Origin: Keratinibaculum paraultunense
Lineage (GTDB): Bacteria; Bacillota; Clostridia; Tissierellales; Tepidimicrobiaceae
Reading direction: 5' to 3'
DNA: 64,000 bases
Assembly (NCBI RefSeq): GCF_016767175.1
Contig: NZ_CP068564.1
Coordinates: 1,054,001-1,118,000 of the forward strand
Positions 1-36,609 of this stretch are shown here, in pieces. Both the position numbers and the translations under genes were made by a program. The notes under the pieces were generated by a model. That model made no database searches and was not told the origin of the DNA. It saw only the letters and a list, made by a program, of their open reading frames with translations. Every line of letters begins with the position of its first letter. Position 1 is the first letter of the stretch.

Positions 1-819
1 AATTATTTTCCCATATATATTGTTATTAAAATTTAATATGTGATTTTCAACTTTAAAATTTTTTTCATTAAAAGTTGGATTAAAACCTATATTAGTTAAG
101 CTTAAATATTGTTGATCTTTTAATACAGTAATAGTTTTATAAACTCCATTTTTAGGTATGATATAATTATCAATAGGATTAATATTAGCAGTAGGAAATC
201 CTAACTTTGTTCCTCTATTGCTACCTTTAATAACTTGCCCTAATATTGTATAATATCTTCCTAAAAATTTGTTTGCTTTTTTTATATTCCCCTCCATCAA
301 TAATTGACGTATTCTTGTACTACTTACTATTTCATTATCAATTGTTATCGGCCTAATAATATTAGTTTTAAATCCTTTCTTGATTCCTAGCTCCTTTAAA
401 TATCTACAATCACCCACAGCTTTATATCCAAATCTATAATCAAAACCAACTGTAACTAATTTTGCATTTAATAGATCTATTATTATTTTATCTACAAACT
501 CTTCTCCTGAAAGTTTCATAATATTTTCATTAAAATTAAGAGTAAATACTACTTCTACTCCTAAATTTTTAAGTATTTTTAGTTTTTGTTCATTAGAAGT
601 AAGAATAGGCACAGATTTTGAATTTTCCTTTAATACATTCTTTGTATGATTTTTAAATAGCAAAACTCCAGGTTTTAAACACATCTCAATTGCTTTTTGT
701 ATATTATCTTCTATTAAATATTTATGACCTATATGAACACCATCAAAATTACCTAAGGCTATTGCTGTTTTATACTCACTCTTATTACTTAAATTTAAAT
801 CTAAATCTATAATTTCCAT
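1..819 (-). CDS. ribF: Bifunctional riboflavin kinase / FMN adenylyltransferase (FAD synthetase), 3' end missing
   Basis: This cytoplasmic enzyme makes FMN from riboflavin and then FAD from FMN. The first 273 codons are in the window and the C-terminal end runs off the left edge. The N-terminal nucleotidyltransferase domain shows LGNFDGVHIGH near residues 22 to 32 with the HxGH motif, and SSTRIR near residue 160. The riboflavin kinase domain starts near residue 185 and shows GFPTANI, the usual flavokinase motif. The ATG at 819 follows a GGTGAT site. The gene lies 10 bases after truB, at the end of the rimP-nusA-infB operon, where ribF also lies in Bacillus. The family identity is clear; only the last 35 or so residues cannot be checked. 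Confidence 0.96.
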   Translation of the reverse strand, partial: MEIIDLDLNLSNKSEYKTAIALGNFDGVHIGHKYLIEDNIQKAIEMCLKPGVLLFKNHTKNVLKENSKSVPILTSNEQKLKILKNLGVEVVFTLNFNENIMKLSGEEFVDKIIIDLLNAKLVTVGFDYRFGYKAVGDCRYLKELGIKKGFKTNIIRPITIDNEIVSSTRIRQLLMEGNIKKANKFLGRYYTILGQVIKGSNRGTKLGFPTANINPIDNYIIPKNGVYKTITVLKDQQYLSLTNIGFNPTFNEKNFKVENHILNFNNNIYGKII

Positions 820-829
820 AACATCACCT

Positions 830-1723
830 TTATATTAAAACTTTGTTCATTTTTAAATAGAAAGTATTATTTTCTTCAATAACTTTACCTATTCCAATAA
901 AAGTATCCTTAGAATATATTCTTAATAAAGAATCTTTATTATAATTATTAAACATAGTTTTAGATATAGAAACACGAGCACCATTTCTTAATTTTTCAAA
1001 GTATCTATCCTCCATAATCAACTTATCTAAATGACTCAAAGCTTTATCCATTGGTAAAATAATATCCTTAATATCTTTTTTACTTAAACTTTTTATATAG
1101 TCAATACTATAACTATCTTCAACTTTAAAATTGCCTACACCTATTCTCATAAGATAAGACATATAACCATAGGTGCCTAAAACTTTCCCTATATCATCAC
1201 ATAATGTCCTTATATATGTTCCCTTTGAGCATTTTGTATAGAAAATAATTTTTTTATTATCAATGTTCTTCAATATTTTCATATCATAAATAAAAGCTTC
1301 CCTATATGCTCTTTTAACAACTTTACCCTTTCTTGCTAATTCATATAATTTTTTCCCTTGATGCTTCAATGCGGAATACATAGGGGGCTCTTGTAATATT
1401 TTACCTTTAAATTTATCAAATGCATTATATATTTCTTTCTCACTAACTTCCTTTAAAGAATAGTTTATAACTTTACCGTCTATATCTAAGGTATCAGTAG
1501 CCAATCCTAAACTTAATTCTCCAACATATTCTTTATCCATATTAAGTAGATATTCACTAATTCTAGTAGCTTTTCCAATACATAAAAGAAGAACTCCAGA
1601 TGCATTTGGATCTAAAATACCTGTATGTCCGATTTTATTAATTCCTATAGTTCTTCTCATTATATTGACTATATCATGAGAAGTTAATCCTTTTGGTTTA
1701 AAAATGTTAATTATACCATTCAT
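830..1723 (-). CDS. truB: tRNA pseudouridine(55) synthase TruB
   Basis: TruB converts U55 of the tRNA T-loop to pseudouridine. The protein has 297 residues, the usual length. The catalytic motif GHTGILDPNASG is at residues 32 to 43 with the nucleophile Asp38. KCSKGTYIRTLCDDIG near residue 163 is the second family signature. The last 60 residues fit the small C-terminal PUA-like domain. The start is 7 bases after the nrnA stop, and the gene is followed by ribF. This is the conserved rbfA-(nrnA)-truB-ribF translation cluster. Confidence 0.97.
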   Translation of the reverse strand: MNGIINIFKPKGLTSHDIVNIMRRTIGINKIGHTGILDPNASGVLLLCIGKATRISEYLLNMDKEYVGELSLGLATDTLDIDGKVINYSLKEVSEKEIYNAFDKFKGKILQEPPMYSALKHQGKKLYELARKGKVVKRAYREAFIYDMKILKNIDNKKIIFYTKCSKGTYIRTLCDDIGKVLGTYGYMSYLMRIGVGNFKVEDSYSIDYIKSLSKKDIKDIILPMDKALSHLDKLIMEDRYFEKLRNGARVSISKTMFNNYNKDSLLRIYSKDTFIGIGKVIEENNTFYLKMNKVLI

Positions 1724-1730
1724 ATTTAAA

Positions 1731-2717
1731 TCACCTTAAAGCTATATTTATTTCATTTTTTATTTCATTAAGAATAAGTTTCTTTGCTTCTGCTATAGTA
1801 GCATAAATAGTGCAACCAGCAGCTTTTTTATGACCCCCACCATTAAATTTAGTGCATATCTTTGAAACATCAATTTTTTTCTTACTTCTTAAACTAGCTT
1901 TTATTTCATTGTATTCCATTTCTTTCAATAAGACAGCAACTTCTACGGAATTTATATCTCTTACAAAGGATACTAACCCCTCTGTATCTTCCAACTTTGC
2001 ATCATTCTTTTTAAGCATGTGCTGAGTAACCGATATTACACCTATCATGTTATCCATAAACAATTCCAAACTGTTTAAACAATCTATAAATAATTTTGTT
2101 TTTTCAATACTTTTGCTTTGATATAAATTAATATTTATATCTTCCATGTCTATTCCAATTTGTAATAGTTCAGCAGCAATCAAATGTGTAGCATAAGTAG
2201 TATTACTATACATAAAACTTCCTGTGTCTGTACTAATTGCTGTATATAAACAAGTAGCAATATCTTTATCTATATTAACACCAATCTTATTAATTAATTT
2301 ATAAATTAACTCTCCTGTAGCAGCAGATTTAGGAGATACTATGTTTATATGACCAAAGTTAGTGTTTGAAATATGATGATCTATATTTATAACATTATTA
2401 GCTTTTAAAGCAACTTTCTTTCCTATACCTAATCTATCCATATCACTACAATCTAAAGCAATAAAAGTATCAATACCTTCATCTATATCATGCTCTTTTA
2501 TAAATTCTATATTTGGCAAAAATAAATATTTTTGTGGAATGTCATCTACTCTTAGTAATCTAACATCTTTATTCATTTTCATTAGTGCCATTCCTAAAGC
2601 CAAAGTAGAACCTATATTGTCTCCATCAGGTTCTACATGAGAACAAATACATAATTTATTAGAGTTTTTTATTACATCAATAGCTTGATTTATAGAAGAT
2701 TTTAAATTATTATTCAT
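1731..2717 (-). CDS. nrnA: DHH/DHHA1 phosphoesterase, NrnA-like oligoribonuclease / pAp phosphatase
   Basis: NrnA-type enzymes degrade 2 to 5 nt RNA oligomers and 3'-phosphoadenosine 5'-phosphate, and some family members cleave cyclic dinucleotide products. Visible motifs are [11 protein letters not shown] near residue 30, [11 protein letters not shown], the eponymous [13 protein letters not shown], and the C-terminal DHHA1 motif [10 protein letters not shown] chose the ATG at 2717 rather than the in-frame ATG at 2741. An AAAGGAG site sits just upstream of it, and the ATG then overlaps the rbfA stop by 8 bases, which indicates translational coupling. The protein is then 328 residues. The gene is typical of this position in Clostridia. 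The exact substrate cannot be read from the sequence. Confidence 0.93.
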
Positions 2718-3087
2718 TAGAATTTCTCCTTTTTTCTTCATCCTCTTTTTTTACTTTATCTATTAACTTAGACATATATATTCCTCGTTCAATTGATTCA
2801 TCTAAATAAAATATAGGTTCTGGTGTATAACGCAAATCTATTCTATTACCTATTTCTTTTCTAATAAAACCTTTAGCACTTTCTAAACCTTCCAATGTAT
2901 CATCTTTAGCTTTTTGATCTCCTAAAACAGATACATATATATTAGCATAGCTTAAATCCTTAGTTACCTCTACTTTTGTTACACTAATCATTGGACTTAT
3001 GCGTGGATCCTTTACTTCCATTGTGAGTAATTCTGATACTATTTTTTTAACTTCTTCTGATATTCTATTAATTCTTCTGGTATCCAT
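2710..3087 (-). CDS. rbfA: 30S ribosome-binding factor A
   Basis: RbfA is a small KH-fold protein that binds the immature 30S subunit and helps 16S rRNA 5' end maturation. The sequence fits the family throughout: [17 protein letters not shown] at the start, [23 protein letters not shown], and [17 protein letters not shown] near the end. An in-frame GTG exists at 3096, but the ATG at 3087 has an AGGGGTG site at proper distance and begins with the usual MDTRR, giving 125 residues. It follows infB by 14 bases and overlaps nrnA by 8. Confidence 0.96.
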
Positions 3088-3101
3088 GGAAATCACACCC
3101 C

Positions 3102-5072
3102 TTACTGTTCAACTTCTTCTAATATATAAGCTTCTAATATATCTCCTTCTTTTATATCATTATAATTTTCAAGAGCTAAACCGCCTTCATAACCGCTTAA
3201 TACTTCTTTAACATCATCTTTAAATCTTTTAAGTGATGATATATTACCTTCAAATATTACAATATTATCTCTAAGAAGTCTAATTTTGCTATTTCTTGTA
3301 ATCTTGCCATCCTGAACGTATATACCAGCAACATTACCAACATTTGGAACTTTAAAGGTAGCTCTAACTTCAGCCCTACCTATAACTTTCTCTTCATATT
3401 TTGGCTCTAACATACCTTTAATGGCTGCTTCAATATCCTCTATAGCTTCATATATAACTCTATAAGTTCTAACATCAACATTTTCTTCCTTTGCTATATC
3501 TAAAGCATTTTGTGTTGGTCTTACATTAAAACCTATAATAATAGCATTAGAAGCTGCAGCCAACATTACATCACTTTCAGTTATACCTCCAACACCTCCG
3601 TGAATAATATTAATTTTTACTTCTTCATTTTCTAGCTTTTCAAGAGATTGTTTAATAGCATCTATAGTTCCTCTTGCATCAGTTTTTATAATTATATTTA
3701 ATTCCTTAATTTCACCTGATTGTATTTTTTCAAATAAATCATCCAAAGAAACCTTTTGCGTAATTTTTAATTGCTCTTCTCTTTCTAATTCTTTTTTCCT
3801 TTCTGCATATATTCTAGCAGTTTTTTCATCTTCTACTGCATATAAGATATCACCTGAAAGAGGTACTTCAGATAATCCTAAAATCATCACCGGAATAGAA
3901 GGACCTGCTTTTTTTATATTTTTCCCTTTATCATCAAACATAGCTCTTATTCTACCACTTGTACTACCACAAACTACTACATCTCCAACTTTTAATGTGC
4001 CTTTTTGAACTAATACAGTAGCTACAGGTCCCTTTCCCTTATCTAATTGAGCTTCTATTACTGTTCCCATTGCCTTTCTATTAGGATTAGCCTTTAATTC
4101 TTGCATCTCTGCCACAAGCAATATCATTTCTAATAAATCATCAATACCTTCTTTCTTTAATGCTGAAACTGGTACATTTACAGTGTCTCCACCCCATTCT
4201 TCTGGAACTAATCCATATTCTACTAATTCTTGCCTTATTCTATCTATACTTGCATCTGGTTTATCTATTTTATTTATTGCCACTATAATAGGAACATTAG
4301 CAGCTTTAGCATGATTTATTGCTTCTACTGTTTGAGGCATAACTCCATCATCAGCTGCTACAACTAATACTGCTATATCCGTAACTTGAGCACCTCTTGC
4401 TCTCATAGATGTAAAAGCTTCATGACCTGGAGTATCTAAAAATACTATTTTTTTACCTTTAATATTAACAACTGAAGCACCTATATGCTGAGTTATCCCA
4501 CCAGCTTCTTGCTCAGTAACATTGGTTTCTCTAATAGCATCCAGTAACGAAGTTTTTCCATGATCAACGTGTCCCATTACAGTAACCACAGGTGGTCTAG
4601 GTTTTAAATCCTCTGGATCATCTTCATAATCTAAATTAAATTCATCTTTTATCTCCAAAGATTTAGACCTTATAATTTTGAAACCTAATTCTTCACCTAT
4701 AATACTTGCAGTATCGAAATCTATGGATTGATTTTGATTAGCCATTATACCTAAGTTTATCAATTTAGTTATTAATTCTGCTGGAGTAATACCTATCTTA
4801 TCTGCTAAATCTTTAACCACAATTGTATCTTCTACTTCTATAACTTTTTCTTCTTCCTTTTTTTTATGAGTTCCATTTGTCGATTGTTTTTCTTTTTTTC
4901 CTTTATCTTTTATTTCACCTGAAATAAGTTCTTTAATTGTTTCAGCTTCTTCATTCTCAATTGTAGCCATATGGCTATTAACGTTTATTCCCATTTCCTC
5001 CATTAATTCCATTAATTCCTTACTGGTAATTTTTAGTTCCTTTGCTAATTCATATATTCTTTTTTTTGTCAA
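3102..5072 (-). CDS. infB: Translation initiation factor IF-2
   Basis: IF-2 is the GTPase that brings initiator tRNA to the 30S subunit and promotes subunit joining. Two IF2-N helical modules are visible ([16 protein letters not shown] and [16 protein letters not shown]), joined by a short charged linker. The G domain follows, with GHVDHGKT (G1), DTPGHEAF (G3) and NKIDKP (G4), and then the C-terminal domains. At about 656 residues this is a short IF-2, normal for Clostridia. The start is probably the TTG at 5072, which has GGGGGTG five bases upstream; a longer in-frame TTG at 5087 would lie inside that site. The ylxQ gene usually found before infB is absent. Confidence 0.97.
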
Positions 5073-5111
5073 ACTATACACCCCCAATATTTTTACAGGT
5101 GATGATTGATA

Positions 5112-5387
5112 TTATTCTTTAGAAAATTTTAATATTGTATCTTTTAATTTATCATATATTTCATCTGGTATGTCAATATCTAATGCTTTTTTAAGTTTTT
5201 GATTACGTTTTGCATTCATAAGACATTCTTCATTTAGACAAATATATGCTCCTCTACCATTCATCTTCCCCGTCAAATCTACTTCTATATTACCTCCTTT
5301 ATCTTTAACTACTCTAATCAGTTCTTTTTTAGGCTTATTTTCATGACAGGCTACACATTTTCTCATTGGAATTTTTCTTTTTTTCAA
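5112..5387 (-). CDS. ylxR: YlxR family RNA-binding protein (RnpM-like)
   Basis: This 91-residue protein belongs to the YlxR (DUF448) family. The family signature MRKCVACHENKPKKEL is near the N terminus, and GRGAYIC and KKAL motifs follow. The B. subtilis homologue has been described as a modulator of RNase P (RnpM). It lies 16 bases after nusA and 39 bases before infB, its conserved place. Role beyond RNA binding is inferred from the homologue. Confidence 0.94.
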   Translation of the reverse strand: MKKRKIPMRKCVACHENKPKKELIRVVKDKGGNIEVDLTGKMNGRGAYICLNEECLMNAKRNQKLKKALDIDIPDEIYDKLKDTILKFSKE

Positions 5388-5403
5388 ATTACCACCCCAC
5401 TAT

Positions 5404-6456
5404 TTACTCTGAAATAAAATTATCTTTATATTGACTTTCACTTTTTATGTCTATTTTCCAATTAGTAAGTTTTGCAGCCAATCTTGCATTTTGCCCTTCC
5501 TTACCAATGGCTAGTGATAATTGATAATCTGGTACTACAACCAAAGCCGATTTTTCCTGTTCATTTACCTCAACTTTCAATACTTTTGAAGGACTTAAAC
5601 TGTTAGCTATAAATTCCTCTATATTTTTACTCCAAACAATTATGTCTATTTTTTCACCATTTAATTCTTCTACAATAGCCTTTACTCTGCTCCCTTTAAA
5701 TCCAACACAAGCTCCAACAGGATCAACATTTGGATCCCTTGAAAAAACAGCAATCTTAGTTCGTGAGCCAGCTTCTCTAGATATAGCATATATATCTACA
5801 ATACCATCATGTATTTCTGGAACTTCTAACTCAAATAATCGTTTAACTAAACCTGGATGAGATCTTGATAGAATAATTTGTGGTCCCTTTGTTGTTTTTT
5901 TTACTTCCAATATATATAATTTTAATCTATCGCCTTGTTCATATATTTCTCCCTCAATTTGTTCTGAAGGAGGTAATATTCCTTCAGTTTTTCCTAAATC
6001 TATATACACATTATTTCTACTTACTCTCTGTACTGTACCTGTTATTATTTCATTTTCTCTATCAGCAAATTCTTCATATATTACATCTCTTTCTGCATCT
6101 TTAATTCTTTGAATTATTACTTGTTTTGCCGTTTGTGCTGCAATTCTTCCAAAATTCTTTGGAGTAATCTCTATGTTTACTACATCACCTAATTGATATT
6201 TATCATCTATGTTTTTAGCATCCTCTAAACTTATTTCCATTAATTCATTTTCAACTTTTTCAACTACATTTTTTTTTGCAAATACCTTTACTATTCCAGA
6301 ATTTTCATCAATTTCTATCTCAACATTTTGCGATGATCCAAAATTTTTTTTATAACTAGAAATAAGTGCTGATTCTAGGGCCTCTAATATTATTTCCTTT
6401 GATATTCCCTTTTCTTCTTCTATCTCTTCAAGGGCTTCAATAAACTCTATATTCAT
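5404..6456 (-). CDS. nusA: Transcription termination/antitermination factor NusA
   Basis: NusA binds RNA polymerase and nascent RNA and stimulates pausing and intrinsic termination. The 350 residues show the N-terminal polymerase-binding domain (MNIEFIEALEEIEEEKGI), an S1 domain around residues 130 to 200 (ITGTVQRVSRNNVYIDLG), and two KH domains. The KH region includes DPVGACVGFKGSRVKAI and the C-terminal LAIGKEGQNARLAAKLT. The short form without C-terminal acidic repeats is normal for Firmicutes. It sits 15 bases after rimP. The leader of this operon holds a hairpin at 7020 to 7039 that could make NusA autoregulatory; see findings. Confidence 0.97.
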   Translation of the reverse strand: MNIEFIEALEEIEEEKGISKEIILEALESALISSYKKNFGSSQNVEIEIDENSGIVKVFAKKNVVEKVENELMEISLEDAKNIDDKYQLGDVVNIEITPKNFGRIAAQTAKQVIIQRIKDAERDVIYEEFADRENEIITGTVQRVSRNNVYIDLGKTEGILPPSEQIEGEIYEQGDRLKLYILEVKKTTKGPQIILSRSHPGLVKRLFELEVPEIHDGIVDIYAISREAGSRTKIAVFSRDPNVDPVGACVGFKGSRVKAIVEELNGEKIDIIVWSKNIEEFIANSLSPSKVLKVEVNEQEKSALVVVPDYQLSLAIGKEGQNARLAAKLTNWKIDIKSESQYKDNFISE

Positions 6457-6471
6457 TAATCCAAACCTCCT

Positions 6472-6936
6472 CTAAAATTTAACTACCAATTTAATATTTG
6501 ATATAATATCTCTTTGAATTGCCCTTTCCTTTTGATTTTCTTCGATAATGATAATATTTTCCTGGGTGAAACTTGCTAATTTCCCTGTATATTTTTTCTT
6601 ACCATCTATATTTTTATATAAACTCACTTCTATTTCTTTTCCAATATTTCTACGCAAATCTTTATCCGTCTTTAATGGTCTATCTAATCCTGGAGATGAA
6701 ATTTCTAAATAGTAGCTATTTTTTATAATATCAATTTCATCTAGCTTATTTCCCACTGCCTCACTAACTTTTTGACAATCGCCAATAGTTATGCCTTCTA
6801 CATTCCCTATATAAAATCTCAGAAACTGTTGCCCATTTTCTTTTATAAATTCTATATCCACTAAATCGTATCCTAAGTCTTCAATTATAGGCTCACAATT
6901 TTCCTCAATAATTTTAAGAATATTTTTTTTATTCAA
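6472..6936 (-). CDS. rimP: Ribosome maturation factor RimP
   Basis: RimP helps assemble the 30S head. The protein has 154 residues, as expected, with the signature YLEISSPGLDRPLKTDKDL in the middle and an Sm-like C-terminal domain (IGKEIEVSLY, YTGKLASF). A GGAGGTGA site precedes the start. It is the first gene of the rimP-nusA-ylxR-infB operon. The 164 bases before it, up to the end of polC, hold the promoter and leader hairpin listed separately. Confidence 0.96.
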   Translation of the reverse strand: MNKKNILKIIEENCEPIIEDLGYDLVDIEFIKENGQQFLRFYIGNVEGITIGDCQKVSEAVGNKLDEIDIIKNSYYLEISSPGLDRPLKTDKDLRRNIGKEIEVSLYKNIDGKKKYTGKLASFTQENIIIIEENQKERAIQRDIISNIKLVVKF

Positions 6937-7009
6937 AATATCACCTCCACTTTAATATATATCTATTTTTTGTTCAATATTTAGAAATATACCTTTCAAA
7001 TATATATAT

Positions 7010-7039
7010 CAAACAAATAAGAGTGGGGTAACCCACTCT
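7010..7039 (-). terminator. Leader terminator or attenuator before rimP-nusA
   Basis: On the minus strand an 8-bp perfect stem (AGAGTGGG, loop TTAC, CCCACTCT) is followed by TATTTGTTTGAT, an interrupted U-tract. It lies 60 bases downstream of polC and 84 bases before rimP. Because a good promoter sits upstream of it (7077 to 7104), RNA from that promoter must pass this hairpin before reaching rimP and nusA. It can therefore both end polC transcripts and act as an attenuator. A broken U-tract is what one expects of a NusA-dependent terminator. Confidence 0.75.
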
Positions 7040-7076
7040 ACTTAAGAATAATTAGCCTAATTGTTGTACCAACTTA

Positions 7077-7104
7077 ATTATATCATATAGTTTAAAAAAA
7101 TCAA
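7077..7104 (-). promoter_or_regulatory. Sigma-A promoter for the rimP-nusA-infB operon
   Basis: The minus strand reads TTGATT (7104 to 7099), a 16-base spacer, then TATAAT (7082 to 7077) with a TG one base upstream, i.e. an extended -10. The -35 box overlaps the polC stop codon. The expected start of transcription is near 7070, which gives a leader of about 130 nt before rimP containing the hairpin at 7020 to 7039. Confidence 0.75.
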
Positions 7105-10100
7105 ATATTAAAAAGGCTTATTTGGTTACTTTCTGGTAAATTCAAAAGACAACCATGTTCTCTCAAGGCTTCTAAAGCAGTTTTATTTACCTTCGCTCTA
7201 GATATTAAATCTTCAATAGATAAAAATTCAGCAATATTTCGTTCCTGAACTATTTTTCTAGCTACTGTTTCTCCAACTCCTTCAAGGCTCTTAAGAGGCG
7301 GTATTATTCCTTTATCGCCAATTATAAATTTGTCACTATGAGATTTATATAATTGGACTTTTTCAAAATTTAATCCCCTAGCATACATTTCTTGAACCAC
7401 TTCTAACACTGTTAACTGATTTTTCTCCTTCGCTGTTAAGTTATTCAAATTATTTTCTAATTCCTTTATTTTATTATCTATAGTACCTTTACCTTTTAGA
7501 ACTAGTTGGGCATCAAAATCTTGAGCTTTCGTGGTAAAATAAGTTGCATAGAAAGCTTCAGGATAATGTACTTTAAAATATGCGATTCTAAAAGACATCA
7601 TTACATATGCAACAGCATGAGCTTTAGGAAACATATATTTAATCTTTTTACAAGAATTTATATACCAATCTGGTACGTTAAAGGATCTCATATATTCTTC
7701 ATCTTCTTCTGATAAACCTCTGCCCTTTCTCACATTTTCCATAATTTTAAAAGATTTCTTTTTATCTAAGCCCAAATGAATTAAATATAGCATAATATCA
7801 TCTCTAGTGGAAATAACCTGATTCAAAGTTGCAGTTCCATTTCTAACTAAGTTTTGAGCATTATTTAGCCATACGTCTGTTCCATGAGATAGTCCACTAA
7901 TACGTACCAACTCTGAAAAAGTATTTGGTTGAGTATCTATAAGCATTTGTCTTACAAATTTAGTTCCAAATTCTGGTATACCTAAAGTTCCTACATCTGT
8001 ATTTATGTCTTTGGGATCAATACCTAATGGTTCTGTACTAGTAAATAATTTCATAGTTTCTTTATCATCTAGAGGAATAGATTTAGCATCTACACCTGTA
8101 ATATCTTCTAACATTCTTATAATTGTGGGTACATCATGACCTAATATATCAAGTTTAAGTATTCTACCACTAATAGAATTATAATCAAAATGTGTGGTTA
8201 TTACTCCAGATTCCTTATCGTCTGCTGGATATTGAATAGGTGTGAAATCATGTATATCTTTATATTTAGGTACAATCATAACTCCTCCTGGATGTTGTCC
8301 AGAAGTACGTTTTATTCCGCTGCAACCTTGAACTAATCTATTTATTTCTGCTGGATGGACACTTATACCTTTTTGTTCATGATATTTTTTTACAAAACCA
8401 TAAGCAGTTTTTTCTGCAATAGTGCCAATAGTACCAGCTCTAAATACATAACCTTTGCCAAATAGTTCTTCTGTATATTTATGAGCTTGAGATTGATATT
8501 CTCCTGCAAAATTTAAATCAATATCTGGTTCTTTATCGCCTTCAAACCCTAAAAATACTTCAAACGGTATGTCATGACCATCTTTTTTAAGTAAAGTTCC
8601 ACATTTAGGACAAACTTTATTTGGTAAATCAACTCCTGAACCTACAGGACCATCTTCAATAAATTCACTGTATTTGCATTTAGGACATACATAATGAGGA
8701 ACTAAAGGATTTACCTCAGTAATACCACTCATCGTTGCAACAAAAGATGAACCCACAGAACCTCTTGAACCAACTAAATATCCGTCTTTTAGAGATTTCC
8801 ATACTAGTTTTTGAGCAATTATATACATTACAGCATATCCATTATTAATTATAGAATTTAATTCCTTATCTAATCTTTCTTTAACTATATCTGGTAATGG
8901 ATCACCATATATTTCCATGGCTCTATTATACGTAATTTTCTTTAATTCTTCATCTGCTCCTTCTATAATTGGGGGATAAGTGCCTTCAGGAATTGGTTTT
9001 ATATTCTCTATTTGATTTGCTATTAAATTACTGTTTTTTATTACTACTTCTTCTGCTTTTTCTTTACCTAAATATTTAAATTCTTCTAACATTTCTTCTG
9101 TAGTTTTAAAATAAAGAGGAGGTTGAAAATCTGCATCAGAGTACCCTTGCCCTGTCATTAATATCTTTCTAAATATCTCATCTTCTGGATCTAAAAAATG
9201 TACATCTCCTGTAGCTACAACAGGCTTATTAAATTTATCTCCTATTTCTACAATTTGTTGATTTATACGTCTTAGCTCATTTTCATCTTTCACAATTCCG
9301 TTTCTTAATAAATGCATGTTATTTCCAATAGGCTGTATTTCTAAATAATCATAAAAATTTACTATATTTTTTATTTCATTAACATCCATATTTCTTAGAA
9401 TAGCACTATATAATTCTCCTGCTTCACAAGCGCTACCAATTATTAATCCATCTCTATATTGAGATAATAAAGATTTAGGAATTCGTGGTCTTCTGTAAAA
9501 ATAATTTAAATGAGATTCAGAAATAAGTTTATATAAATTTTTTAATCCCTTTTGGTTTTTAGCTAATATTATTATATGATAGGGCTTCTCTTTAGAGATA
9601 TTTTTATTTGTTGATAATTTATTTATTTTATAAAAATTATTTATATGATTCTTATCTAGTATATTCATGCATTTTAAAAATATCTCTCCTGTTGCTCTTG
9701 CATCATCTATTGCTCTATGATGATTAACTAAATCTACATTTAAATATTTAGCAATTACATCTAGTTTATATTTCTTAAGTTGAGGGAATAAAGCTCTTGT
9801 AAGCTCAAGGGTATCAAGAACTGGATTGTCTAATATCTTACCTAACTTTAAAAATTCTTCTCTTATGAAACCAATATCAAAAGAAGCATTATGAGCTACT
9901 AATACACTATTTTGAATAAATTTCTCAAAACATGGTAAAACTTCTTCTATTCTTGGTTTATCAGATACCATTTCGTCGGTAATTCCAGTGATATTTACTA
10001 TATTATTTGGAATAGGTATACCAGGATTTACTAATTGGCTAAATTCATCTATGATTACTCCTTCTCTTATTTTTACTGCTCCTATTTCAGTTATTTTATC

Positions 10101-22142: not shown

Positions 22143-22574
22143 CTAATATTCTAATATTTTCTTTAAGTTTAAAAGTATAATTAATCTATCAGAGATTTTC
22201 CCTATACCGCTTACATATTCCATAAACTGATTGTTTTCATCATAAGGAGGCTTATCTATATTATCCTTAGGAATTTCCAGTACTTCTGATGATGAATCAA
22301 CAATTAACCCTACTACAATATCATCTAAAGTAACAATAACTACCCTTGAATTTTCGTCTATTTCACGTTTCTCCATGCCTAGTTTTTCCCTTAAATTTAT
22401 AATGGGAATTACTTCTCCTCTTAGATTAGTTACACCAGTAACGTAATCTGGTGCATTAGGAACTCTAGTAGTGGTACTCATTTTTTCTATAGAAAGAACA
22501 TTATATATAGGTATTCCATAGCATTCATCATCTAGCCTTGATATAACATATTTGTTTTCTATTTCAGAAGACAT
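22143..22574 (-). CDS. cheW: Chemotaxis coupling protein CheW
   Basis: CheW links chemoreceptors to the CheA kinase. The 143 residues are a single CheW domain: CYGIPIYNVLSIEKMSTTTR, PNAPDYVTGVTNLRGEVIPI with NLRE and VDSSSEVLEI. The conserved NLRG motif is intact. It follows cheA by 13 bases. Confidence 0.97.
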   Translation of the reverse strand: MSSEIENKYVISRLDDECYGIPIYNVLSIEKMSTTTRVPNAPDYVTGVTNLRGEVIPIINLREKLGMEKREIDENSRVVIVTLDDIVVGLIVDSSSEVLEIPKDNIDKPPYDENNQFMEYVSGIGKISDRLIILLNLKKILEY

Positions 22575-22587
22575 AATTAACCCCCCT

Positions 22588-24951
22588 TTATATCAATGAA
22601 TTTGTATCTAGTATTAATGATATACTTCCATTTCCTAATATAGTAGCACCTGATATATATTTTATATTTGATAAATATTTACCCATAGGCTTTATAACTA
22701 TTTCTTGTTGTCCAATTAAACTATCTACTAATAATCCTGCTTGTTTTTCTCCCTTATGCACAACTACCGCTATATATTCATCCACATCCTCATTAAAATT
22801 AATATTTAAAATTCGATTTAATCTTACCACCGGTATAGTTTTACCTCTATATAACATTATTTCTTGACCTTGTATGTTTCTAATATCCTCTTTATTTATA
22901 TCAGTTATTTCAGTTATAGAACTTAATGGTATAGCATATATTTCATCATTTAATTTTACCAATAATGCTTGTATAATTGCTAATGTTAAAGGAATTCTAA
23001 TTATAAATTTAGTCCCAACATTTATTTTTGTTTCTATCTCAACAGAACCATTTATAGATTCTATCTTACTTTTAACTACATCTAAACCTACACCTCTTCC
23101 GGATATATCTGATACTTTCTCAGAAGTACTAAATCCAGGAGTAAATAATAAAGCTAAAATTTCTTCTTCACTTAACATTTCTCCTTCTTGTTCAGTAATA
23201 ATCCCTTTTTGTATAGCCTTATCTTTAATTTTATTCGAATCTATCCCTCTGCCATCATCAATAACTTCAATTACTACATTATTACCATCAGGATATGCTT
23301 TAAGTATAACAGTTCCTTCTTTTGGTTTTCCTAATTTTATCCTCTCTTCTGGCATTTCAATTCCATGATCAATAGAATTTCTAATTATATGTATTAAAGG
23401 ATCTCCTATTTCATCAATTACTGTCCTATCTACCTCTGTTTCTTCCCCCAACATTTGAAGCTTTATTTCCTTATTTAGCTCTTTAGATAAATCTCTTACC
23501 ATTCTTGGAAATCTATTAAATACTCTTTCTACAGGCACCATCCTAACTTTCATTACTGCATCATGAAGACTTGTAGTTATTCTCTCTAAATATTCAATAG
23601 CTTCTATCATATTTTCTTTATTAGAAGATTCGCTTAAATCATCCATCCTGGTTTTTATTATTATCAACTCAGACACAAGATTCATTAAATTATCCAATCG
23701 ATCAATATCTACCCTAACAGTTTTTCCAATTCTTTTTTCTCTTTTTATTATATTTGACTTTTTATCCTTAGAATTAGAAGTTGAAGTTGAACTTTTTCGT
23801 TCAGTATCCTTTTTAGTAATTTTGCTTTCCTTTTCCCTATTTCTATCAGCATGTTCCATTAAAACTATACTTACATTATCCACTTCAGCTATACCTTCTA
23901 AAGCTTTCTTTATCTCATCTTTATTTGCTTTTGTTATAAAAATAACCTCAAAACTTAAATCAAATTTTTCGTCTTCAATATCCTCCACTGGAGGATTTGA
24001 ATATATTATATCTCCCATAGGCTCTAATGTATTAAATACTATAAATGCTCTTGCTGATTTTAACATACACTGTGGATTTAAATTTATAGTAATTTTATAA
24101 GAGTTAAGACCTTTCTCTTTCGCTTCTTCTATTATATTTAAAGTATATTCATCTAATTGTTTTAATTGTTTATCTTCTTTTTGCTTAGATAGATATTCAT
24201 AATCAATTTCAACTATATTTACATCATCAATTTCTGAAATATTTTCTATTTCTTTTTGTATTTTTTCTTTGTCAACATTAGATATTAATACAACTGTAAA
24301 ACTTAAATCAAATTTTTCATCTTCAATATCCTCCACTGGAGGATTTGAATATATTATATCTCCTATAGACTCTAATGTATTAAATACTATAAATGCTCTT
24401 GCTGATTTTAACATACACTGTGGATTTAAATTTATAGTAATTTTATAAGAGTTAAGACCTTTCTCTTTCGCTTCTTTTATAGCTTTTATTGTGTATTGAT
24501 TTAAATATGCTTCATTTTGAATATTGGACTTATCACTTTTATTTATAGATTCTTTATTTTTATCTTTATTTATTATGGCTTGCAATCTATTTATTAAATC
24601 ATCATAACTTTCTTCATCTTCTTCTCCATTTTCTGCTATAAAATTAACAGAATAATCTAATGCATCAAAGCACTCAAATATAAGATCAATTATATTTTCA
24701 TTTAATTCTATGGTATTATTTCTTATTTCTTGGAACACATTCTCCATCTCATGAGTTAAATTTGAAATATTTGTAAATCCCATAGTTCCTGCCATACCCT
24801 TTAATGTATGGGCAACTCTAAATATCTCATCAATTAAAGCTTTATTATTAATATCTTTTTCTAATTCTAACAATGATTCATTCATAAGTTGTAGATGTTC
24901 TTTAGTTTCCTCTACAAATATATCTATATATTGATTAAAATCTAAATCCAT
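22588..24951 (-). CDS. cheA: Chemotaxis histidine kinase CheA with two tandem P2 domains
   Basis: CheA autophosphorylates in response to receptors and passes the phosphate to CheY and CheB. The 787 residues hold: P1/HPt with the phospho-accepting His48 in VAHTLKGMAG; two consecutive P2 domains (about 150 to 250 and 268 to 365), where one is usual; a short Ser/Lys linker; P3 dimerisation (VSELIIIKTRMDDL); the P4 ATPase with IRNSIDHGIE, DDGRGID, FTPGFST and SGRGVGLDVV; and a C-terminal P5 CheW-like domain. The two P2 copies share an almost identical 60-residue core, described under the repeats. The extra P2 may raise local CheY/CheB binding. All kinase motifs look intact. Confidence 0.97.
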   Translation of the reverse strand: MDLDFNQYIDIFVEETKEHLQLMNESLLELEKDINNKALIDEIFRVAHTLKGMAGTMGFTNISNLTHEMENVFQEIRNNTIELNENIIDLIFECFDALDYSVNFIAENGEEDEESYDDLINRLQAIINKDKNKESINKSDKSNIQNEAYLNQYTIKAIKEAKEKGLNSYKITINLNPQCMLKSARAFIVFNTLESIGDIIYSNPPVEDIEDEKFDLSFTVVLISNVDKEKIQKEIENISEIDDVNIVEIDYEYLSKQKEDKQLKQLDEYTLNIIEEAKEKGLNSYKITINLNPQCMLKSARAFIVFNTLEPMGDIIYSNPPVEDIEDEKFDLSFEVIFITKANKDEIKKALEGIAEVDNVSIVLMEHADRNREKESKITKKDTERKSSTSTSNSKDKKSNIIKREKRIGKTVRVDIDRLDNLMNLVSELIIIKTRMDDLSESSNKENMIEAIEYLERITTSLHDAVMKVRMVPVERVFNRFPRMVRDLSKELNKEIKLQMLGEETEVDRTVIDEIGDPLIHIIRNSIDHGIEMPEERIKLGKPKEGTVILKAYPDGNNVVIEVIDDGRGIDSNKIKDKAIQKGIITEQEGEMLSEEEILALLFTPGFSTSEKVSDISGRGVGLDVVKSKIESINGSVEIETKINVGTKFIIRIPLTLAIIQALLVKLNDEIYAIPLSSITEITDINKEDIRNIQGQEIMLYRGKTIPVVRLNRILNINFNEDVDEYIAVVVHKGEKQAGLLVDSLIGQQEIVIKPMGKYLSNIKYISGATILGNGSISLILDTNSLI
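23950..24128 (-). repeat. Second copy of the P2-domain repeat in cheA
   Basis: This 179-bp block matches 24298 to 24476 at 176 of 179 positions by direct comparison, with an offset of 348 bp. It codes for about residues 275 to 334 of CheA. Sequence on both sides diverges abruptly. Confidence 0.95.
24298..24476 (-). repeat. First copy of the P2-domain repeat in cheA
   Basis: Partner of 23950 to 24128. It codes for about residues 159 to 218. The only differences are three transitions; two of them change SI to PM in the otherwise identical peptide, and the third is silent. Confidence 0.95.
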
Positions 24952-24954
24952 TAT

Positions 24955-26001
24955 TTACACCCCCACTATACTCATAATTTCATGAGCAATATTGTTTAAA
25001 GGAACTATTTTGTCAACATGTTTAGTTTTAATTGCAGACTTAGGCATACCAAATACTACAGAAGTTGTTTCGTCTTGCGCTATGGTATATCCGTTAGCGT
25101 TTTTTATTTTAACAATACCTTTTGCACCATCTGAACCCATACCAGTCATAATAACTCCAATCTTTTTATATCCTTCTATTTCTGCTACTGACTCCATTAA
25201 TAAATCTGCAGCTGGTCGTAAACCCTTTATTGGTGGTTCCTTGCTCAATCTTATGATATTTTGATTTCCTTTAGGCACAACTCTCATATGATAATCGCCT
25301 GGTGCAATATAACAATAACCTCGCTTTAATGTTTCTCCTTCTTCTCCTTCTTTGACAACAACATGAGATAAAGAATTTAACCTATCTGCCAAGGATTTAG
25401 TAAAATTTGCAGGCATATGTTGTACTACTAATATGGTCCCATTTATATTTTTAGGAAATAATGGAATTACATCCTGTAATGCACGAGGTCCCCCTGTTGA
25501 AGTAGCTATAGCAATAATATAATCATATTCTACATTTTTATTTAACACTAAATCTTCTTGTCCTGTAATTTTAGGTTTAAATTTTATGCTATAATCTTTC
25601 TTTACTTTAGAAACAGCAGCCGCTTTTATCTTATCTGTTATTTCATATTTTATAAATTCACTGCTCATTTCAAATATGTTTTTAGGCTTTGTAATAAAAT
25701 CTATAGCACCAATTTCTAATGCCTTTAAAGTATGATATGCCCCGTCTTCAGTAAGACTACTAATCATTACTACAGGAATACTGTATTTATCTACTATATG
25801 TTTTAATGTAGTAATTCCATCCATTATAGGCATTTCAATATCTAATGTGATTACATCAGGTTTTAATATAGGAATTTTTTCTAATGCTTCTTTTCCATTT
25901 CTAGCTTCTCCCACTACTATAATATCATCATCTTCTTTCAGAGCATCCCTTAAAATCCTACGCATAAAAAGAGAATCATCTACTATCATTAATTTTATCA
26001 A
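24955..26001 (-). CDS. cheB: Chemoreceptor methylesterase CheB
   Basis: CheB removes methyl groups from chemoreceptor glutamates, and its receiver domain is phosphorylated by CheA. The receiver (1 to 120) has Asp54 in ITLDIEMPIMDG. The catalytic domain (about 155 to 348) has the nucleophile Ser in ATSTGGPRAL, His in VVQHMPANF, and Asp in MTGMGSDGAKG. The length of 348 residues is normal. It lies 3 bases before cheA in the operon. Confidence 0.97.
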   Translation of the reverse strand: MIKLMIVDDSLFMRRILRDALKEDDDIIVVGEARNGKEALEKIPILKPDVITLDIEMPIMDGITTLKHIVDKYSIPVVMISSLTEDGAYHTLKALEIGAIDFITKPKNIFEMSSEFIKYEITDKIKAAAVSKVKKDYSIKFKPKITGQEDLVLNKNVEYDYIIAIATSTGGPRALQDVIPLFPKNINGTILVVQHMPANFTKSLADRLNSLSHVVVKEGEEGETLKRGYCYIAPGDYHMRVVPKGNQNIIRLSKEPPIKGLRPAADLLMESVAEIEGYKKIGVIMTGMGSDGAKGIVKIKNANGYTIAQDETTSVVFGMPKSAIKTKHVDKIVPLNNIAHEIMSIVGV

Positions 26002-34081: not shown

Positions 34082-34444
34082 TTATCCTAAAACCTTTTTT
34101 ACAGCCTCTATAACTCGATCCGCTTGAAATGGCTTTACTATAAAATCCTTGGCTCCTGCTTGTATTGCCTCAATAACCATAGCTTGTTGTCCCATTGCAG
34201 AACACATTACTATCTTTGCATTTTCATCTATTTTTTTTATTTCTTTTACAGCTTGAATTCCATCCATCTCTGGCATTGTAATATCCATGATTACCAATTC
34301 TGGTTTCAATTCTTTATATTTTTCAACAGCTTTTACTCCATTTTCTGCTTCTCCTACCACTTCAAATCCATTTTTAGTGAGAATATCCTTTATCATCATC
34401 CTCATAAAAGAAGCATCATCTACTATTAATATTCCTTTTGACAT
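34082..34444 (-). CDS. cheY: Chemotaxis response regulator CheY
   Basis: CheY carries the signal from CheA to the motor switch FliM. It is a single 120-residue receiver domain: acidic pair DD at 9 and 10, phospho-acceptor Asp54 in LVIMDITMPEMDG, Thr/Ser in MCSAMG, and Lys in FIVKPFQ. It lies between fliY and fliO, as in Bacillus. Confidence 0.97.
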   Translation of the reverse strand: MSKGILIVDDASFMRMMIKDILTKNGFEVVGEAENGVKAVEKYKELKPELVIMDITMPEMDGIQAVKEIKKIDENAKIVMCSAMGQQAMVIEAIQAGAKDFIVKPFQADRVIEAVKKVLG

Positions 34445-34476: not shown

Positions 34477-35625
34477 TTATTTACCATAAGAATTATCTAT
34501 ATCAGTTATTCTAATACCAAAATTATCATCAATTACTACTACCTCACCTTTAGCAATATATTTTCCATTTGCATAGATATCTAAAGGTTCCCCAACTAAC
34601 TTATCCAATTCTACTACAGTACCAGGACCATATTCTAAAATTTCACCAATTTTTTTAACCGTTCTTCCTAGTTCAACAGTAATTTCTACAGGTATATCGC
34701 TAACCAAATCGATAGGTTTATTATAACTAACTTCTTGAGAGTTGTCAAAAGTTTCAAATTGAGGCTTTTTAATAACTACAGGATCTTTTTCAATTTTTCC
34801 TAATTGTTTATCTTCTACAGTTCTATTATCTTTTATTTCTTCATTTTCTTCAAAACTATCACTCAATATATTACTTTCATCTTTATCAAAATAATTACTT
34901 GAATCTGGTGTTTCTATTTCTTTATCTTCGTCAGGTTTACCTATTAAGTTTGCAACCATTTCCTTGCCAAATTCTAAAGGTATTAATTGCATAATTTCAC
35001 TATCTATCAAATCTTCAACTATCATTTTAAAAGATACTTTAATAATTGGGTCTGGACCTTTTAATACATCTAATGTTTTCTTTCCTTCTTCAAATGTTAT
35101 TTCATAGGATTTTGGTGGCTCAATATCAATTTTTTTCATAAAAATTTCTGACAATGAAGTACAAGCTGAACCCATCATTTGATTCATTACTTCTGATATG
35201 GCACTTAAATCCAACTCTGTTAATTCTCTACTTGTATCAATTTCATCATTTCCTAACATTATATCAGTTATTATTTTTACATCATCTAGTTTTATAATTA
35301 ATACATTAGAGCCTTCAAATCCTTCTTTGTATTTTACATCTACTGCAACAAATGGAATAGGATACTCATCTGACAACTCTTTTACAGTAGCTATAGTAAC
35401 CGTTGGAGTAGTTATCATTACTTTTTTATTCAACAAAGTAGATAAGGTAGTTGCAGCAGTTCCCATACTAATATTACCTATTTCACCTATCGTATCCTTT
35501 TCTATATCTGTTATTACATCATTCTCTATATCATATTTATCGTCATTTTCGCTATTCTCACTAATATCCTCTGTTCCCTTTAATAAAGAATCTATTTCCT
35601 CTTGAGAAAGAGTATCTTTAGTCAT
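34477..35625 (-). CDS. fliY: Motor switch phosphatase FliY (CheC-like plus FliN domain)
   Basis: FliY is the Gram-positive switch component that both builds the C-ring and dephosphorylates CheY-P. An N-terminal CheY-binding peptide (LSQEEIDSLL) is followed by a CheC-type phosphatase domain (about 45 to 230) with EIGNISMGTAATTLSTLL and AISEVMNQMMGSACTSL. A variable acidic linker and a C-terminal SpoA/FliN domain (about 305 to 382, IPVEITVELGRTVKKIGEIL) complete it. The ATG at 35625 overlaps the fliM stop by 8 bases and has GGTGAT upstream; the protein is about 382 residues. Confidence 0.95.
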   Translation of the reverse strand: MTKDTLSQEEIDSLLKGTEDISENSENDDKYDIENDVITDIEKDTIGEIGNISMGTAATTLSTLLNKKVMITTPTVTIATVKELSDEYPIPFVAVDVKYKEGFEGSNVLIIKLDDVKIITDIMLGNDEIDTSRELTELDLSAISEVMNQMMGSACTSLSEIFMKKIDIEPPKSYEITFEEGKKTLDVLKGPDPIIKVSFKMIVEDLIDSEIMQLIPLEFGKEMVANLIGKPDEDKEIETPDSSNYFDKDESNILSDSFEENEEIKDNRTVEDKQLGKIEKDPVVIKKPQFETFDNSQEVSYNKPIDLVSDIPVEITVELGRTVKKIGEILEYGPGTVVELDKLVGEPLDIYANGKYIAKGEVVVIDDNFGIRITDIDNSYGK

Positions 35626-36609
35626 ATTCATCACCATCCTTTACAACCTCTGTTATTTTTACTGCCATTCTATTTCTAGATGTACCAATAGTACCTAAAA
35701 ATTTAACTTGAGAACCAATTCTTACTCTTATTTCTTCATCTGTTCTACTATTAAGCTTTATTACATCTCCCTTTTGCAAATCTAAAATATCTTTTACTTT
35801 TACAGTTGTAGAACCAAGTTCAGTCTTTATTGGAACCCTTGTATCTAATATTCTTTTTTTTATAGCTAAAATCTCTTTTTCTGATAAATCTTTCTCTTTT
35901 GTTGAAAACCAATATCTAGTACTTAATTTATCAAGTACTGGCTCTATAACTAAATGAGGTATACATATATTTAACATTCCTTCAGTTGAACCTACTTCAA
36001 CATTCATTGTTATAAGAGCAATAGTTTCATTAGGAGGCACTATTTGAGCAAATTGTGGATTAACTTCAATCTTATTTAACTTAGGCTTTAATTGAATTAT
36101 ATTGCTCCAAGCTTCTTGAATTAGAGGCATTACTTTACCCATCATATTATCCAGTAATGATAATTCTATCTCTGTAAAAGCTCTAATCTCTTGTTTTTCA
36201 GTACCATCTCCACCTAAAAGTCTATCTAATATAGCATATACTACATTTGTAGATATATCCATAAGTATTTGACCATTTAACGGTTCAAAATCTATAATGC
36301 TTAAAAATGCTGGATTGGGAATCGCATTACTAAATTCACTATAAGCAAATTGATCTACAGTCAAAATAGATATTTTAACTGGTGTTCTTAAGTATCCAGA
36401 TAAAAAAGTTTGAAATAATCTTCCAAAATTTTCATGAATTATCTCTAATGTTCTTAGTTGATCTTTAGCAATTTTTGTGGATTTCTAAAATCATATTTTT
36501 TTACTTTAGCTGAATTTTCTACTTCTTTAATCTCTTGAACATCCACATCTCCAGAACTTAAAGCTTGGAGTAATGCGTCAATTTCTTTTTGTGATAATAC
36601 TTCAGACAA
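35618..36609 (-). CDS. fliM: Flagellar motor switch protein FliM, interrupted by a one-base frameshift
   Basis: FliM is the C-ring protein that binds CheY-P and sets rotation direction. The intact downstream frame begins at 36364 with TVDQFAYSEF. The missing N terminus is present upstream in another frame: TTG at 36609 after AAGGAGGAGAGG, then SEVLSQKEIDALLQAL, the CheY-binding peptide, and YDFRNPQK. One A is missing in a poly-A run (five Ts at 36472 to 36476 on the plus strand); adding it restores IAKDQLRTLEIIHENFGRLF and a normal 330-residue protein. The C-terminal SpoA domain is intact. Either an assembly error, slippage during transcription, or a real mutation would explain this. Confidence 0.9.

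Follow-up and report, generated by a model that had tools for sequence, protein, structure and literature searches.

The cheA gene and its surroundings

The window, that is, the whole stretch of 64,000 nucleotides analyzed in this study, contained a flagellar and chemotaxis gene cluster on its minus strand, in which the gene cheA is housed. Additionally, cheB, cheW, cheC, cheD, and a gene for a CheY-like protein were found in the window, with cheC and cheD lying downstream of cheA. The features discussed below are as follows.

22588-24951, minus strand: cheA, encoding 787 aa with Hpt (P1), P2a, P2b, dimerization, HATPase_c, and CheW-like domains (open reading frame and Pfam)
24187-24501, minus strand: P2a, the first P2 domain, residues about 151-255 as modeled (Pfam P2)
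23839-24153, minus strand: P2b, the second P2 domain, residues about 267-371 (Pfam P2, 106.4 bits; codon alignment with P2a)
24298-24476, minus strand: putatively converted core, P2a copy, 179 bp, identical to 23950-24128 at 176 of 179 bases
23950-24128, minus strand: putatively converted core, P2b copy, 179 bp, identical to 24298-24476 at 176 of 179 bases
24955-26001, minus strand: cheB, directly upstream of cheA (Pfam CheB_methylest and Response_reg)
22143-22574, minus strand: cheW, adjoining cheA downstream (Pfam CheW)
34082-34444, minus strand: CheY-like receiver-only protein of 120 aa (Pfam Response_reg, 115.8 bits)

The Hpt (residues 7-98), dimerization (H-kinase_dim, 410-469), HATPase_c (517-656), and CheW-like (661-787) domains of the cheA protein all scored above the Pfam cut-offs and occurred in CheA order. 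The P2 family (PF07194) matched two stretches of the protein with 202 bits in total, and at the genome level it gave two distinct matches in one open frame (109.8 and 106.4 bits). Among the receiver-domain matches in the genome (n = 24), the top score belonged to the CheY-like gene of the cluster, and at least one further short frame (125 aa) could likewise encode a lone receiver. The CheY-like protein would likely bind P2 as its main client, and CheB is a likely second client.

At 34477-35637, the cluster that holds the separate cheC also encodes a switch protein, which we take to be FliY-like because it combines two CheC-like stretches with FliN at its C-terminal end. The occurrence of this protein beside cheC may mean that the removal of phosphate from CheY is doubled too. 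Within cheA, an antisense open frame of 164 aa was identified (22874-23368, plus strand), which is most likely incidental to the AT richness of the coding sequence.

The repeated core of the two P2 domains

The core was defined by an ungapped self-comparison of cheA at an offset of 348, and its bounds are the mismatches at 24477 and 24297. Three mismatches remain inside it, at 24369 (S/P), 24364 (I/M), and 24319 (silent). Outside the core, base agreement was 66.7% over the first 10 codons and 63.8% over the last 35 codons, and the offset of 348 stayed constant through these diverged but still alignable flanks. The tandem, the tract, and its edges were thus observed directly, and the initial annotation, which had described two P2 domains with a 179-bp core identical at 176 of 179 bases, a spacing of 348, and diverged flanks, was borne out to the base. 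No further direct repeat of at least 60 bases besides the cheA core was found in the 64-kb window with a seed of 14.

Over the variable sites, the longest run of identity between P2a and P2b of the window was 44 of 147, which was equaled in none of 10000 column permutations, indicating that the identity of the core is not due to chance. In the nine other pairs tested, the longest run was 3-10, and 529 to 9952 of 10000 permutations reached it.

The structural model of P2a (mean pLDDT 92.9) matched the CheA P2 domain of Thermotoga maritima (1u0s_A) with a Foldseek E of 5.1e-10, an rmsd of 0.8, and 36% identity. In the numbering of the model, the core takes in residues 10-68 together with two bases of residue 9. 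It begins in the last part of the first helix and runs through strand 1, helix 2, strand 2, and a short helix into the first part of strand 3, and the diverged parts comprise the beginning of the first helix as well as the remainder of strand 3, the next helix, and strand 4.

Tandem P2 in related genomes and the history of core and flanks

Two P2 domains were found in three of 20 family genomes (including that of the window) and one in 16, and the contig of the remaining genome (G010) starts past the P2 region, so that its P2 count cannot be judged. The three tandem-P2 genomes are that of the window (G000), a genome of the same genus (G012), in which a contig end truncates P2a, and G014, which we take to be the record of Clostridium sp. 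Cult3 (L037) because the contig coordinates agree and the 810-residue frame is identical in both. In a tree of CheA based on P3-P5, for which 24 of 25 loci were kept (L015 of G003 was lost to the motif filter), the three genomes formed one clade (98/97), within which the window grouped with G012 (98/96). This shared clade suggests that the duplication is probably old, and a single P2 duplication in the ancestor of the three genomes would be the simplest reading of the sequences.

The best 80 loci from at least 572 relatives were searched by local tblastn with P2a of the window, which could overlook a second P2 that has diverged; two P2 domains were detected in L037 alone, a single one in 78 loci, and none in L100. 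At the order level, 74 of 199 genomes matched; outside the three tandem-P2 genomes, no open frame exceeded 713 aa, a length too short to hold a second P2 of such size, though several frames (e.g., 189, 414, 501, and 523 aa) seem truncated and allow no judgment. At the class level, PF07194 was detected in 116 of 291 genomes, and two matches in one frame were found only in that of the window among the matches listed; long frames of 886 aa (G280) and 771 aa (G384) had one PF07194 match each. A second CheA-like region was noticed in G019 (contig C7:157254-158209), 36-53% identical in pieces and with stop codons within the matched frames, which is perhaps a decayed second cheA or a frame-shifted assembly.

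Silent sites separated the core from the flanks. Between P2a and P2b of the window, dN and dS were 0.014 and 0.03 in the core, compared with 0.42 and 0.90 in the C flank, and the core held one silent change over 34.3 silent sites (95% range 0.0007-0.16 per site). Among core codons for the same residue, only 1 of 57 differed between the two copies of the window. Against the copies of G012 the corresponding counts were 13 of 49 and 15 of 53 (dS 0.52-0.83), and against those of Cult3 they were 23 of 51 and 21 of 52. The contrast with G012 indicates that the window copies were homogenized after the split from G012.

The other tandems repeated this pattern less clearly: the core was again more alike between copies than the flanks, and the silent bases differed per genome. 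In G012, 1 of 35 same-residue codons differed between its own two copies (37 comparable core codons) and the C-flank dS was 1.04; since one copy starts within the repeat, at the end of a contig, assembly could account for part of the core identity there. The two G012 copies have silent bases in common that are unlike those of the window. In Cult3, 10 of 51 same-residue core codons differed between the two copies, which were nearer to each other than to the copies of the window, and the longest identity run of this pair (6) was ordinary, being reached by 2910 of 10000 permutations. These comparisons support a recent homogenization in the window, a recurrence of the pattern in G012, and a weaker form of it in Cult3. 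The comparison with relatives had been proposed in the initial annotation itself as a check, and its outcome, with cores alike again and silent bases differing per genome, supports an old duplication with a recent conversion, as it is not that of identical substitutions held by selection.

The flanks and the core also differed in the relationships that they favored. Counts of sites favoring orthology, paralogy, or cross-pairing were 12, 5, and 3 in the flank vs. 0, 18, and 0 in the core for the window and Cult3 (Fisher p 7.4e-6), 9, 1, and 3 vs. 0, 8, and 0 for the window and G012 (p 4.1e-4), and 13, 2, and 3 vs. 1, 9, and 0 for Cult3 and G012 (p 2.4e-4), with sites treated as independent. Flank sites thus favored orthology and core sites paralogy in all three genome pairs, which share genomes and are therefore not independent comparisons. 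Because the core edges were defined on the two window copies, they are an outside choice for Cult3 and G012. The end of the G012 cheA on contig L027 (K27), which is P2b-like at its 3' end, stood in as P2a for the N part.

The core tree had 23 rows and the C-flank tree 22; neither included L015, L021 (a contig without P2), L047, L049, L050, or L051. In the core tree, the two window copies (Wa and Wb) grouped together (89/77), as did the G012 copies (84/86; Ka9 covers 37 of 59 core codons), and the Cult3 copies (Ca and Cb) shared an unresolved fork with three rows from loci with one P2; AU tests rejected the orthologue groupings (p 0.000165, 1.3e-6, and 8.6e-5). In the C-flank tree (105 columns), from which K27 was omitted because its 3' part is P2b-like, the three P2b copies grouped (92/87) and Ca joined Ka9 of G012 (95/90), with Wa unplaced and no P2a clade (P2a held together, p 0.40). 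Paralogue groupings were not rejected on this short flank, so that the case for an old duplication depends on the counts of sites and on the clade and layout that the three genomes share.

Probable gene conversion, its alternatives, and known systems

Taken together, these results make it highly probable that an old tandem duplication of P2 was followed by divergence and then by recent gene conversion of the central core. The initial annotation, which had proposed an old duplication with a recent conversion of the middle part, was right in outline, given the near identity of core codons within the window and their divergence from orthologues (13-23 of 49-53). We infer the mechanism, direction, number of events, and functional effect as follows. 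The P2 domain of CheA would have been duplicated once, in the common ancestor of the genus of the window and the Clostridium sp. Cult3 lineage, after which P2a and P2b would have diverged. Non-reciprocal homologous recombination between the copies would then have overwritten their central, best conserved part, most likely by RecA-dependent gene conversion between sister chromosomes or within one. Conversion probably occurred more than once in the clade, and in the genome of the window it would have been recent and about 179 bp long.

Two unequal crossing overs, with a gain to three P2 domains and a later loss, might have homogenized the core instead of non-reciprocal conversion. The resulting pattern would be much like that of conversion, and a hybrid P2a/P2b end in G012 resembles a loss event. 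The cheA gene of G012 is split over two contigs (L009 and L027), each ending in the repeat: L009 opens with 87 bases that are repeated from its base 367, and its first 83 bases are found in L027. Positions 2043-2218 of L027 pass from the P2a flank through the core to the P2b flank, with a P2b match in 21 of 21 C-flank codons, and differ from the P2b of L009 (1-542) by one base late in the core (ACA vs. ATA at codon 59). This hybrid may reflect the path of the assembly through the repeat, a conversion tract that extends further in some cells, or the loss of one P2. However, L027 ends at a contig edge in the repeat, two exchanges would be required with both outer flanks retained, and no frame long enough for three P2 domains was seen among the 20 family genomes. 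We consider this alternative improbable.

A fresh partial duplication, in which the middle part was recently copied without an old tandem or tandems arose independently in each genome, is very unlikely. The C-flank tree, short as it is, did not formally reject the paralogue groupings (AU p 0.35, 0.14, and 0.16), but the offset of 348 holds across diverged, alignable flanks. This alternative is also disfavored by the placement of the tandem in a single clade of three genomes and by the leaning of flank sites to orthology over paralogy in each genome pair.

Selection on the core protein, or on its DNA or RNA sequence, could in principle keep the copies alike without recombination, and the core is indeed the conserved part of P2: of the 12 columns that are invariant across 23 aligned P2 sequences, it contains 11. 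Nevertheless, the same codons change silently between genomes and hardly at all between the copies of the window, so that selection at the protein level cannot explain the identity of the core. Selection on silent sites was also rejected, as the same codons carry different silent bases across genomes, including those common to the two copies of G012. We give this explanation almost no weight. Equally far-fetched is an assembly or polishing artefact: short-read polishing can homogenize repeats of this size, but the genome is one contig of 2,307,997 bases, three differences survive in the core next to diverged flanks, and the separately assembled Cult3 has the same tandem.

For the gene conversion that we prefer, a few core codons, at which the two copies of the relatives encode different residues, bear on direction. 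At codon 12 the two window copies are b-like, and at codons 13 and 17 they agree with the P2b of G012; at codon 27 they are a-like, and at codon 24 they agree with the P2a end of G012. This mixture of residues at few sites suggests at least two conversion tracts or patchy repair in the core of the window. It is conceivable, if rather doubtful, that the P2 pair is under concerted evolution, in which each lineage would have undergone its own conversion of the same central docking block, favored as both sites must continue to recognize the same co-evolving CheY and CheB, with the outer parts free to diverge. If so, the hybrid P2 of G012 would be a present-day outcome of this recombination, either with a longer tract or with the loss of one P2.

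Both P2 domains probably still dock CheY (and CheB), which would double the docking sites per CheA subunit, with the conserved part kept equivalent, by analogy with Borrelia. The proposal that the tandem is a rapidly tuned signaling module found no support, because the homogenization of identical protein cores runs counter to diversification. The repeat is also a plausible, putative site of repeat-driven instability. Draft assemblies can break at the P2 repeat, as that of G012 did, which is a warning for users of drafts. More generally, the cheA gene of the window illustrates that recombination can hold the copies of a duplicated interaction domain in one signaling protein together against their drifting apart, and its two 179-bp blocks, 348 bp apart, provide a tractable case for measuring conversion and copy loss.

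Duplicated P2 domains in CheA have already been published for Borreliales and for several independent events. The survey by Berry et al. 2023 (PMC10782961) covers CheA proteins with a duplicated P2 or CheY-binding domain, two per CheA as in the window, and infers several independent duplications; its section on P2 mentions neither this clade nor conversion between copies. The same paper treats the P2 docking domain as dispensable in E. coli, which is also the organism treated in passages on P2 of PMC5705603. Among the matches listed for literature on CheA gene conversion, tandem or duplicated P2, and inter-domain conversion, no P2-P2 conversion was recognized from titles and the starts of abstracts.

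CheA2 of Borrelia burgdorferi, with P2-alpha and P2-beta, is described in PMC10703414 as a chemotaxis CheA with tandem P2 domains, like that of the window, and its two P2 domains are proposed to raise the local concentration of phospho-CheY. The Borrelia pair is 26% identical as proteins, whereas the window pair has a DNA core that is 98% identical. The P2 domain of Thermotoga maritima CheA (1u0s chain A) has the same fold as P2a of the window but is a lone domain, and its parent CheA has a single P2 (PMC10703414) compared with two in the window. Conversion between old bacterial paralogues is known for RF1/RF2 (PMC4530459), as proposed here for the P2 pair; RF1 and RF2 are separate genes, whereas in the window the converted stretches would lie 348 bp apart in two domains of a single gene. 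As P2 duplication and gene conversion are both known, the advance is modest, and the cheA gene of the window is a tidy new instance combining the two rather than a new system.
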